From Candidatus Aminicenantota bacterium (GTDB lineage Bacteria > Acidobacteriota > Aminicenantia > UBA2199): 5,400 nt of DNA. Position numbers and translations under genes: made by a program. The stretch covers positions 2,107,698 through 2,113,097 of the forward strand of contig CP070627.1 in the NCBI GenBank assembly GCA_020355945.1. Direction: 5' to 3'. This document shows positions 1 to 4,888 of this stretch, in pieces; the stretch's first letter is position 1, and every line of letters starts with the position of its first letter. The notes beneath the pieces were generated by a model. It had not been told where the DNA came from. It saw only the letters and a program-made list of their open reading frames with translations, and did no database searches.

Positions 1-929
1 TTAGCTTGAGATTGTAATGATTTGGGCAGCTTATCAAGGATATTGCGTGTCCGATGCACCCAACAGCGTTGATGAACTGTTGACGGATATACCTTCGCCA
101 GGGCATTCCAAAAACCCAACGAGCCATCTCCAATCGCAAGAGACGGGCCATCGCTCAGGCCCCGTTGCTTTAAATCTAAAAGTATATCCATCCACGTCAA
201 TTCGCTCTCTCTATAACCAACATCCATTGCTACCAGCTCTTTTTGGCCATCAGCATCAGCACCGATTATCACCAATACGCAACTCTTCTCCTTACTAAGA
301 CGCACGTTGAAGTAGATACCGTCCACCCACCAATATACGTATTTTTTATCCGATAGATCACGACGGTTCCACTTTTCATATTCTTGATCCCACTCTTGCT
401 TGAGACGATTCAAGCTCCCAGCAGAGAACGACACTGGCTTGCCTACCAACTGCGAAAGCACATCTGACATCCGCGTACTGGAAACACCATGAAGATACAA
501 AAAGGGAAGGAAATCTTCAATATTCTCACTTCTTCTTAAGTATTTCGGGATCAGTTGGCTCTGGTACAAAATCTGCTCTTTTTTACCTTTTTTACCTCCA
601 CTCCCTTTCGCTTTCGATTCATGCTGATCACCATCACAATCACCATCACCATCACAATCACAATCACGATCACGGCTGCGGGGGACTTTCACCGATACAT
701 TTCCTATGGCCGTTTGAAACTGGCGCTCACGATGGTAACCATTACGAACGATTCGCTGCTGACCGTTAGGCATTCGTTTGCTTGACTGCACTTCGATAAA
801 TTCGCTGATTTCGGCTTCTAACGCTAAACGCAGCATCAATTCCGCACCTTTACGAGCTAATTCTCGAAAAGTCAATTTAATTAAATTTTCATGTAGACTT
901 TCTTTAAATTTTTCGATAAAATCTTTCAT
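1..929 (-). CDS. IS256-family transposase, N-terminal 309 residues, cut by window edge
   Basis: The frame is open without a break from ATG at 929 to the left edge, giving 309 residues of a protein normally about 400 long. It opens M-K-D-F-I-E-K-F, followed by the family's E-L-A-R-K-G-A-E-L-M-L-R and A-E-I-S-E-F-I-E region, N-G-Y-H-R-E-R and Y-L-R-R. The first catalytic Asp is D203 in W-W-V-D-G-I-Y-F-N-V-R; the second is D268 in A-I-G-D-G-S-L-G-F-W. C289-W-V-H292-R-T-R-N-I follows, the C-x2-H signature of Mutator-like DDE transposases. The catalytic Glu lies beyond the window. An unusual Asp-rich block, R-D-R-D-C-D-C-D-G-D-G-D-C-D-G-D at residues 86-101, then a G-S-G-G-K-K-G-K-K linker, stand where relatives usually have a short basic linker. 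AAAGGAGG lies 10 nt before the ATG. The visible part looks intact, so the element may be active. Confidence 0.9.
   Translation of the reverse strand, partial: MKDFIEKFKESLHENLIKLTFRELARKGAELMLRLALEAEISEFIEVQSSKRMPNGQQRIVRNGYHRERQFQTAIGNVSVKVPRSRDRDCDCDGDGDCDGDQHESKAKGSGGKKGKKEQILYQSQLIPKYLRRSENIEDFLPFLYLHGVSSTRMSDVLSQLVGKPVSFSAGSLNRLKQEWDQEYEKWNRRDLSDKKYVYWWVDGIYFNVRLSKEKSCVLVIIGADADGQKELVAMDVGYRESELTWMDILLDLKQRGLSDGPSLAIGDGSLGFWNALAKVYPSTVHQRCWVHRTRNILDKLPKSLQSQA
627..674 (-). repeat. In-frame hexanucleotide-type repeat inside the transposase
   Basis: Eight near-copies of a six-base unit (atcaca, atcacc or atcacg on the plus strand) run in tandem. Read on the minus strand they encode Asp alternating with Gly, Cys or Arg. 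Because the unit is a multiple of three, gain or loss of copies keeps the frame. This looks like a microsatellite expansion in a linker rather than a conserved domain. Confidence 0.85.
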
Positions 930-997
930 GTGGCGTATGCCTCCTTTGTTGATTTTTTCTTCAAAACAAATTTTAACAAAGTTAAGCATACGCCACA
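929..997 (-). promoter_or_regulatory. Inverted repeat able to hide the transposase ribosome site and start
   Basis: A perfect 12-bp inverted repeat joins 986-997 with 929-940. After a 4/3-base internal loop, another 7 bp pair 975-981 with 944-950, leaving a 24-nt loop. In minus-strand RNA the 3' arm covers most of the AAAGGAGG site (940-947), the spacer and the first base of the start codon. A transcript entering from the propeller gene would include both arms and could fold shut. IS10 and IS50 are known to limit transposase translation from read-through RNA this way. Confidence 0.6.
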
Positions 998-998
998 A
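970..998 (-). promoter_or_regulatory. Candidate internal transposase promoter at the IS end
   Basis: TTGTGG (998-993) and TAAAAT (975-970) are 17 nt apart on the minus strand, a sigma70-like arrangement. Initiation about 7 nt downstream, near 963, falls in the loop of the inverted repeat, so this transcript would lack the 5' arm and leave the ribosome site free. The -35 match is only partial. Confidence 0.4.
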
Positions 999-2556: not shown

Positions 2557-2759
2557 TCAGGCATTCGGCTCAATACGAAGCCCGAGTATCTTAAACTGAT
2601 CAATTGGTATGCTTTTTTTCTCAACAGGGCTGCATATTCTTTTGATTTCGGTGGGCAAAAGATTTATCATCCATTCTTGAAAATGTTCTTCGGAACAGAA
2701 ATCACCTGCCTTTCTTCTGATGTCAAATCCTACATGCTCGTGCGTTGGTTCGTGCCCAT
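2557..2759 (-). pseudogene. Probable frameshifted small gene between maturase and dsrE-like gene
   Basis: A GGGAGG ribosome site 20 nt past the maturase stop precedes an ATG at 2759, but that frame stops after nine codons (M-G-T-N-Q-R-T-S-M, TAG at 2732-2730). A frame offset by one base is open from 2769 to a TGA at 2559-2557, with no ATG, GTG or TTG before an internal Met about half-way. It reads like protein: H-E-H-V-G-F-D-I-R-R-K-A-G-D-F-C, later N-L-L-P-T-E-I-K-R-I-C-S-P-V and I-D-Q-F-K-I-L-G-L-R-I. A one-base change within the first nine codons would join the ribosome site and ATG to this frame, giving about 66 residues with two Cys. It could be a decayed gene, a sequencing error or, less likely, a programmed frameshift. 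I do not recognise the family. The opposite-strand frame over this region looks like a shadow. Confidence 0.45.
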
Positions 2760-2779
2760 ATTGGTTTTTTTACCTCCCT

Positions 2780-4186: not shown

Positions 4187-4393
4187 GATTTTATCTCCTT
4201 TTTAGACCGTAATACCGCATCTATTGTTATTTTTAATCGCAACAATTTTTTTCACCTGGCGCAACCTTCAACAGATTGGAAAATTTTTAGATGTATAAAA
4301 ATAGAGAAAAAAAATATCTCTTCTTCTCCACCAGACAATTTGAAATTGGGGGGCATTGCAGCCCCCCGAATGTAGAGCATTAACCTTAACTCG
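4187..4393 (-). other. 207-nt spacer between peptide gene and maturase
   Basis: This is the longest gene-free stretch in the putative operon. It carries the G/C hairpin, a T-rich segment near 4305-4320 and an AT-rich leader to the maturase. The maturase ribosome site AAGGAGA lies about 8 nt before its ATG. A 36-codon frame beginning near the hairpin has no credible ribosome site, so I do not call it. I see no convincing promoter or riboswitch. Confidence 0.5.
4348..4367 (-). terminator. G/C hairpin after the peptide gene, possible attenuator or RNA-end stabiliser
   Basis: On the minus strand GGGGGGC pairs with GCCCCCC around a six-base TGCAAT loop, giving a perfect 7-bp all-G/C stem 26 nt past the peptide stop. 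The 3' tail is AATTTCAAATT, not a clean T run, so it is a poor classical terminator. A tract of eight T lies about 30 nt further on. It may partly terminate transcription or block 3' exonucleases, so that the peptide message exceeds that of the downstream maturase. Confidence 0.55.
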
Positions 4394-4567
4394 TCAAGTC
4401 ACCCGATCGGCTTCACTCAAACAAATCGTATTGGTGACCTTGTCGACTTCTTTCAGAAGACAAATCATCTGGCCGGTTACGGGGTCAACTTCCTTTACAC
4501 AACTTGCCTCTTTCGTACCATAGGCGCCTACTACGATTTTTCTCATGTCCATTTTGCTTATGTCCAT
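4394..4567 (-). CDS. Putative RiPP precursor peptide, 57 aa, three 13-residue Cys repeats
   Basis: AGGAGG lies 8 nt before the ATG (4576-4581), and the 57-codon frame ends in TGA. Residues 1-22 look like a leader (M-D-I-S-K-M-D-M-R-K-I-V-V-G-A-Y-G...). From residue 23 the peptide is periodic: Cys23, Cys36 and Cys49 are exactly 13 apart. The units read C-V-K-E-V-D-P-V-T-G-Q-M-I, then C-L-L-K-E-V-D-K-V-T-N-T-I, then C-L-S-E-A-D-R-V-T at the C-terminus, sharing C-hydrophobic, an acidic pair and D-x-V-T. A small peptide with repeated Cys just upstream of a radical SAM/SPASM enzyme is the standard layout of a RiPP precursor with its maturase. Cys-to-Asp or Cys-to-alpha-carbon thioethers, as in ranthipeptides and sactipeptides, are possible products by analogy. 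I do not recognise the family. Met6 and Met8 are alternative starts, but the ribosome site favours Met1. There is no Gly-Gly cleavage site and no linked protease or exporter in view. Confidence 0.72.
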   Translation of the reverse strand: MDISKMDMRKIVVGAYGTKEASCVKEVDPVTGQMICLLKEVDKVTNTICLSEADRVT

Positions 4568-4588
4568 TTATTGGACCTCCTATAATTT

Positions 4589-4888
4589 TTATTTTGTTTG
4601 GTTTATTAAGAGAGAGTTTAATGCTTTTTGAACGTGTATGCGGTTAACTTTGTCGACTTTCAATTGATTTTCCCTTTCTTTGCTAATCACCACCAATGGC
4701 GCTGCCCTAAGTACCCCGTCTGTCTCGGTAAGCTTTACGCCATTTTTTTCAAATATTGTTCGATCTCCAGGTAGGGTATAGTACTTGCATTCAACATCAT
4801 CTTCATGCCCTCTTATGGAATTTTTGACTACATATTCGGCAAACTTACAGCAATCACATTCAAAAACTTCAATAAGTACTTTTTTCAT
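4589..4888 (-). CDS. Small thioredoxin-fold protein with a Cys-Asp-Cys-Cys motif
   Basis: This 99-residue protein begins with a beta strand (K-K-V-L-I-E-V-F) running straight into Cys11-Asp-Cys13-Cys14 and a helix. A second strand follows around residues 32-38 (V-E-C-K-Y-Y-T), then R-A-A-P-L-V-V-I (61-68), whose Pro64 sits where the thioredoxin cis-proline is expected. That order (strand, Cys motif, helix, strand, cis-Pro strand, final helix) is why I call a thioredoxin-like fold. No family is certain. NCBI naming of a DsrE-related 'SaoD' and thioredoxin-like 'SaoT' comes to mind because a DsrE-like gene is nearby, but that is memory, not a match I can verify. A role in disulfide or persulfide transfer is inferred. 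Its ATG overlaps the nifU-like TGA by four bases, with G-G-A-G-A-G-G upstream, so the two are probably translated together. The peptide gene follows 21 nt after its stop. Confidence 0.8.
   Translation of the reverse strand: MKKVLIEVFECDCCKFAEYVVKNSIRGHEDDVECKYYTLPGDRTIFEKNGVKLTETDGVLRAAPLVVISKERENQLKVDKVNRIHVQKALNSLLINQTK

Follow-up and report, generated by a model that had tools for sequence, protein, structure and literature searches.

The 5,400-nt stretch of DNA considered here (the window) comes from a Candidatus Aminicenantota bacterium (contig CP070627.1) and holds all its genes of interest on the minus strand. Our subject is a gene of 57 codons in this window, which encodes a peptide with three evenly spaced cysteines, together with the radical S-adenosylmethionine (SAM)/SPASM enzyme that is encoded 207 nt downstream of it. 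In the direction of transcription, the order is a NifU-like gene, a gene for a CxCC protein, the peptide, the enzyme, an open frame without a start codon, SaoD, a beta-propeller protein and a transposase (Table 1).

The peptide, MDISKMDMRKIVVGAYGTKEAS-CVKEVDPVTGQMI-CLLKEVDKVTNTI-CLSEADRVT, begins with ATG and has its cysteines at residues 23, 36 and 49, with a spacing of 13 and 13. Each cysteine opens a unit (CVKEVDPVT, CLLKEVDKVT and CLSEADRVT) of the pattern C-x2/3-E-[VA]-D-x-V-T, in which the aspartate (residues 28, 42 and 54) lies within D-x-V-T and follows its cysteine by 5, 6 and 5 positions. These features, as well as the good ribosome-binding site, had been pointed out in an earlier sequence-only reading of the window, and each of them is found in the sequence as described. 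A further feature, absent from that reading, is a glutamate at +3, +4 and +3 from the cysteine, such that only the second unit reads C-x3-E and the first and third read C-x2-E. Residues 1-22, ahead of the first unit, look leader-like.

The repeat is unlikely to be accidental. Aligned with itself, the peptide scores 54, as against a mean of 18 and a maximum of 46 in shuffled versions, and its score was reached by none of 2000 shuffles (nor by any of 500 in a repeat run); equal cysteine spacing by itself would be expected in 2.7% of placements of three cysteines in 57 residues. Among the identical residues of paired units, 2/7, 3/5 and 4/6 are encoded by synonymous codon variants, which suggests that selection has acted on the protein and speaks against a fresh duplication of DNA. 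The units thus seem to have been maintained as protein sequence. An open frame that arose by chance, or a gene that has decayed, would agree with the lack of a detectable homologue and with the TGA stop that is followed by a hairpin, but would leave the repeat statistics, the synonymous differences between units and the ribosome-binding site unexplained. We regard this explanation as very improbable, and we have hardly any doubt that the gene is real.

The hairpin in question lies 3′ of the peptide stop, between the peptide and the enzyme, and has a perfect G+C stem of 7 bp without a T-run. Over 57 nt, the region folds with −20.9 kcal/mol (z −2.80), and none of 200 shuffles was as stable. The terminator scan listed no T-tailed terminator at this position, promoter and terminator scans yielded nothing useful in the peptide-enzyme gap, and an Rfam scan of the window gave no match. 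The structure is possibly an attenuator, which would allow more peptide than enzyme to be made, or an RNA-stabilizing hairpin. We also considered whether the TGA of the peptide might encode selenocysteine (Sec) and rejected this, as read-through would add 41 codons with no further unit; these cross the hairpin and a stretch rich in A+T and end at a second TGA.

The enzyme matches Pfam Radical_SAM with 77.3 bits, and its CNLRCVYC motif is of the C-x3-C-x2-C type that is characteristic of radical SAM enzymes, with C104, C108 and C111 invariant in 17 sequences. Its further cysteines in the alignment are C348 and C408-x2-C411-x5-C417-x3-C421-x16-C438, and G362-x4-C367 is present in the sequence. 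We take the C408 to C438 pattern to be the mark of a SPASM auxiliary-cluster domain and on this basis assign the enzyme to the SPASM proteins, in agreement with the sequence-only reading. By profile comparison, its closest solved relative is the thioether-forming maturase CteB, and CteB also ranks first among solved structures in a structural comparison. As to a possible peptide-recognition (RRE-like) domain at the N terminus, residues 1-90 of the enzyme model form three strands and three helices, and the alignments with the structures 5wgg and 8vpo begin at model residues 4 and 1; broad testing in this comparison was confined to residues 87-443. A role of the enzyme in defence was considered and discarded, since its PADLOC matches were generic and at most 52.4 bits (pVip).

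The enzyme belongs to a small group. An additional motif, G-x4-CCC-x-N, which adjoins an auxiliary-cluster cysteine, is found in 13 of 120 listed enzymes, including that of the window, and these form a single, rare clade with 100% bootstrap. The trees contain 53 and 45 rows from one search each; the fragmentary P0011 and the greater part of the 120 listed matches are not among them. Branches are long, and the forks that join the enzyme clades are either open or supported by 80-94% bootstrap. The closest relatives (P0003-P0011) are 53-81% identical to the window enzyme. None of the best 80 of 273 relatives on genome contigs exceeds 38% identity to it, and the enzymes of the best 80 of 137 loci on viral contigs are 21-34% identical. 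Locus context was read for three members of the clade, namely the window, L002 (Zixibacteria) and L003 (Acidiferrobacterales), the enzymes of the latter two being 36% and 38% identical to that of the window. With the window enzyme as query, the L002 genome alone was matched among 132 genomes of its phylum (E ≤ 1e-70), and no match was found in 146 genomes of the phylum of locus L027. Likewise, the L003 enzyme matched itself alone in 369 genomes of its class (E ≤ 1e-80), and the enzyme of a third locus, L005, had two matches, its own included, in 115 genomes of its class (E ≤ 1e-90).

Upstream of the peptide, the NifU-like and CxCC-protein genes share 4 nt where the first stops and the second starts. 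The NifU-like gene is itself immediately preceded by a 23-codon frame, MKPKKPSKQLTMKKKKRCQVNIC (5377-5306, minus strand), with an AGGAGG site of its own, two cysteines and a high content of lysine. Downstream of the enzyme, the assignment of SaoD passes the NCBIfam cut-off. The start-less frame between the two is possibly a frame-shifted small gene; its homology to the peptides of L002 and L003 described below was considered and dismissed (hhalign probability 6.6%). An enzyme 60% identical to that of the window (P0007) and a propeller protein 83% identical to its counterpart (P0123) both lie on contigs of 10,471 bp, which are probably one and the same, and the propeller gene may for this reason belong to the locus.

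Table 1. Features of the window discussed in the text, in minus-strand order
Feature	Position	Strand	Evidence and remarks
NifU_N/IscU-like protein, 139 residues	4885..5304	-	Pfam NifU_N 99.1 bits (cut-off 22); NifU_clost 109.7 bits (cut-off 187.9)
CxCC protein, 99 residues, motif CDCC	4589..4888	-	weak match to thioredoxin-like SaoT (NF040730), 19.9 bits (cut-off 65)
AGGAGG ribosome-binding site of the 57-residue peptide	4576..4581	-	8 nt ahead of ATG
Putative precursor peptide, 57 residues, stop TGA	4394..4567	-	residues 1-22, then Cys units from 23, 36 and 49
Stem-loop GGGGGGC-TGCAAT-GCCCCCC, peptide-enzyme gap	4348..4367	-	folding compared with shuffles
Radical SAM/SPASM enzyme, 468 residues	2780..4186	-	CNLRCVYC, SPASM-type cysteines, clade motif GKIYSCCCIN
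Start-less open frame between enzyme and SaoD, 70 codons, two Cys	2560..2769	-	no in-frame start near its beginning
SaoD, DsrE-type, 110 residues	2186..2518	-	NF040732, 178.7 bits (cut-off 169)
Six-bladed beta-propeller protein, DUF5128, 384 residues	982..2136	-	downstream; cluster membership uncertain
Mutator-type transposase gene, cluster edge	3..998	-	listed open reading frame overlaps the end of the propeller gene

Other peptides with tandem, evenly spaced cysteine units are found directly upstream of related radical SAM enzymes in Theionarchaea. At L005 (7744-7971) there are six CALEV(QPTF) units and at L006 (7771-7947) four, with cysteines 9 residues apart. At L005 the first five units share one and the same DNA sequence, and at L006 all four do; between the two loci there are two synonymous codon differences per unit. 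A third locus, L211 (956-1195), which was taken for Theionarchaea because another match in its genome (G630) coincides in coordinates with the L006 contig, encodes a 79-residue peptide whose three FCATLP units place the cysteines at intervals of 17; a radical SAM/SPASM enzyme follows after 61 bases. The L001 peptide contains one FCAL unit, and its leader and the one at L005 are similar (an alignment gives 41%). The enzymes of L005, L006 and L211 are 32, 33 and 34% identical to the window enzyme and fall into neighbouring clades, such that varying numbers of equal cysteine units are seen beside CteB-like enzymes in three clades of the tree. To this extent, the proposal of the sequence-only reading that a tandem-unit peptide stands beside a RiPP-type maturase (RiPP, ribosomally synthesized and post-translationally modified peptide) is well founded.

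The likeness is one of architecture. The forks joining these clades are weak, the Theionarchaea units (CALEVQPTF, FCATLP) cannot be convincingly aligned with those of the window, and the enzymes of the L005 type and of L211 lack the CCC motif. Homology of the window peptide with the Theionarchaea peptides was considered, and the 27% obtained in a gapped alignment was not convincing; hence we compare architecture alone. In a self-similarity test of 20 peptides, picked by hand from two locus scans, one of which covered 59 of 80 genome-contig loci, the scores of the window, L005, L006 and L211 peptides were reached by none of 500 shuffles each. Lesser self-similarity was seen for L009, L049, L031, L063, L042 and L010 (9, 13, 26, 55, 56 and 84 of 500 shuffles), which we put down to CC motifs. 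Among the Bacillota enzymes of the wider family (L009, L010, L013, L014, L021, L026 and similar loci), short peptides of the type CC...QCC[SA]KSS..GCHD precede the enzyme, and a methyltransferase-like gene adjoins in several cases.

What we favour, on the probable side of even, is that the 57-residue peptide is a RiPP precursor built of Cys/acidic modules, which the neighbouring enzyme cross-links in the manner of a ranthipeptide, and that it lies in no named family tested. Several observations weigh against this. A search for homologues of the peptide matched only the peptide itself. Furthermore, L002 and L003 have mutually similar peptides of 62 and 77 residues directly upstream of their enzymes, which end in V-C-x-E-x-V-x3-L-R-W and contain one cysteine (L002) or two (L003), without a repeat and unlike the window peptide. 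The three-Cys peptide is therefore not general in the clade. The sequence-only reading had named homologous enzymes without such a peptide as evidence that would overturn it; these two loci come close to being just that, except that their enzymes are only 36-38% identical to that of the window. Its suggestion of a new RiPP class would appear to claim too much.

The genes for SaoD, the NifU-like protein and the thioredoxin-like CxCC protein, unmentioned in that reading, may matter to the mechanism. In three of the three clade members whose context is readable, NifU-like and SaoD genes lie no more than about 4 kb from the enzyme. In L003, they are directly upstream of peptide and enzyme, and in L002 they follow the enzyme at a distance of about 2.4 kb, beyond an open reading frame of 720 codons. 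The SaoD proteins of L002 (12336-12674) and L003 (7297-7635) are 60 and 65% identical to the window SaoD. These genes raise the question whether the peptide is a substrate at all, or instead stays unmodified, as a small thiol protein or metal-binding protein from an operon for sulfur/organometal handling. According to a recent review, the Sao proteins are part of a Sec-assisted organometallic system; the part of the review available to us names no radical SAM or RiPP component (PMC13188914). The SaoD match above its cut-off, the CxCC-protein gene that adjoins the peptide, with its weak likeness to SaoT, and the different peptides of L002 and L003 would all suit such an operon. However, the SaoT match stays below its cut-off, and the six window proteins scanned match no other Sao family, SaoL, SaoB, SaoX and SaoP included. 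Moreover, Cys-unit peptides precede the Theionarchaea enzymes, where the L005 and L006 loci have no match to the window SaoD, NifU-like or CxCC proteins and the L005 genome (G004) has no SaoD match. An unmodified peptide is on these grounds rather unlikely, and we think it likely that the peptide is indeed the substrate of the enzyme.

A second use of the same genes would be the insertion of sulfur: the enzyme would receive sulfur or iron-sulfur clusters from SaoD, as a DsrE-type sulfur carrier, and from the NifU-like protein, and would attach sulfur to the peptide units, for example as a thiolation or a thioheterocycle at each cysteine. Radical SAM enzymes that sacrifice an auxiliary cluster are re-supplied by scaffolds of the NifU/IscU type. 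The recurrence of both genes beside the enzyme in all three readable clade members would fit with this, as would the confinement of the extra CCC motif to one clade, and in L002 there is the additional observation of an in-frame TGA (9096-9098) at the third Cys position of the motif (CC[TGA]MNCC) in a genome with a tRNA-Sec match. On the other hand, among its close relatives none turned up for which sulfur insertion has been demonstrated, and the first-ranked solved structure is that of a thioether former. The NifU_N matches of L002 and L003 are low (28.0 and 38.5 bits, cut-off 22), and the window NifU-like protein, used as a tblastn query, did not find that of L002. SaoD also occurs without the enzyme, which was absent from all seven further SaoD loci (L171-L177, each 12-15 kb in length) of the order to which the L003 genome belongs. 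SaoD-like genes are present in 8 of 57 genomes of that order (L003 included) and in 26 of 251 of the L063 phylum, and none was found in 19 genomes of the L001 phylum. As they are fairly common, and L171-L177 have no enzyme nearby, the NCBI name SaoD may cover more than the SAO system. Sulfur insertion strikes us as unlikely.

The evidence on Sec in the L002 enzyme is mixed. Directly after the TGA, an 8-bp hairpin with the loop GUU folds with −14.9 kcal/mol, and 38 of 1000 shuffles fold with an energy as low. The equivalent stretch in L003 lacks the TGA and yet is more stable (−20.6 kcal/mol; window −7.3), and hairpin stability is consequently weak evidence for Sec. The tRNA-Sec match reaches 65.7 bits in the L002 genome and a borderline 47.4 bits in that of L003 (cut-off 47). 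On the TGA at a conserved Cys, the hairpin and the tRNA-Sec match together, the L002 enzyme is a possible selenoprotein. A literature search found no paper that brings selenoproteins together with SPASM and radical SAM, and the 2026 review names two other selenoproteins of the radical SAM type (PMC13188914). A broader version of the sulfur scenario would be a maturase clade (GxxxxCC[C/U]xN) with a dedicated sulfur relay of SaoD, NifU-like and CxCC proteins, which installs sulfur on the Cys/acidic units or makes sulfur-dependent rings in them, with the auxiliary cluster or a Cys/Sec residue taking part and Sec being used in one lineage. We rate this, too, as improbable.

With respect to known maturases, the window enzyme stays below the cut-off of each named family tested: 149.8 of 600 bits for CefB (NF038107), 136.1 of 525 for TIGR04463, 117 of 340 for PapB (NF047865) and 103.5 of 425 for the SCIFF maturase ScfB/CteB (TIGR03974). 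This makes a ranthipeptide of known type less likely, but leaves untouched the idea that the system works in the ranthipeptide manner. CefB, the best-scoring NCBIfam family, is named for a cysteine at every fifth position, a periodicity that recurs here with every thirteenth residue instead. The SCIFF peptide has six cysteines in about 45 residues. The pair of PapA and PapB (freyrasin), whose thioether goes to a non-alpha carbon, likewise combines repeated cysteines, each with an acidic residue at short distance, with a radical SAM/SPASM partner. PapB accepts Cys-Xn-Asp with n = 0-6 as well as Cys/Glu pairs, according to the portion of that work available to us (PMC9413430), and hence tolerates the spacings of the window, which makes the likeness to Cys-x3-Asp ranthipeptides drawn in the sequence-only reading a reasonable one. 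Unlike PapA, however, the window peptide has the motif C-x2/3-E, a further acidic residue within D-x-V-T, and units of 13 residues. The precursors of rSAM Cluster 59 also repeat a Cys-acidic motif, up to six times, beside a radical SAM gene; as far as the accessible part of the report goes, their acidic residue immediately precedes the cysteine, and the cluster consists of recombinase, radical SAM enzyme and peptide, without sulfur genes (PMC9062424).

For the cross-linking of the units that we favour, the following mechanism can be envisaged. The N-terminal 22 or so residues would serve as a leader, to which the CteB-like enzyme would bind through its N-terminal region. The enzyme would then form one radical-dependent cross-link per unit, from the cysteine sulfur to a nearby acidic side chain. 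The acceptor would most likely be the glutamate 3-4 residues on (C-x2-E, C-x3-E, C-x2-E), otherwise the aspartate 5-6 residues on, and up to three equivalent small thioether rings would result. SaoD and the CxCC and NifU-like proteins would maintain thiols and iron-sulfur clusters; their genes suggest either such upkeep or a supply of sulfur as part of the chemistry, and this is the least settled step. A precursor modified differently, by a C-C bond or by epimerization at other residues of the unit such as Val or Ile, as in repeat precursors like TvgA, is a further candidate. However, the cysteines stay exactly 13 residues apart in all three units, while the position of the D-x-V-T core moves by one, and cysteine is what the peptide shares with the Theionarchaea peptides; CteB, moreover, ranks first structurally. 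We thus deem a modification of this kind quite improbable, and a Cys-acidic thioether has slightly better than even prospects of being the product. The product may be secreted or may be a peptide that handles metal or sulfur.

A literature search on Aminicenantes RiPPs and radical SAM enzymes found no paper, and the pair of precursor and enzyme, which we take to be real, is probably undescribed. If its units are cross-linked, the peptide would be a compact substrate with three equal sites and a non-canonical spacing of Cys, Glu and Asp. The different Cys-unit peptides beside related archaeal enzymes suggest a wider family of modular precursors, and the link to SaoD, the NifU-like protein and the Cys/Sec motif offers a testable case for a peptide maturase that is tied to the delivery of sulfur or selenium.
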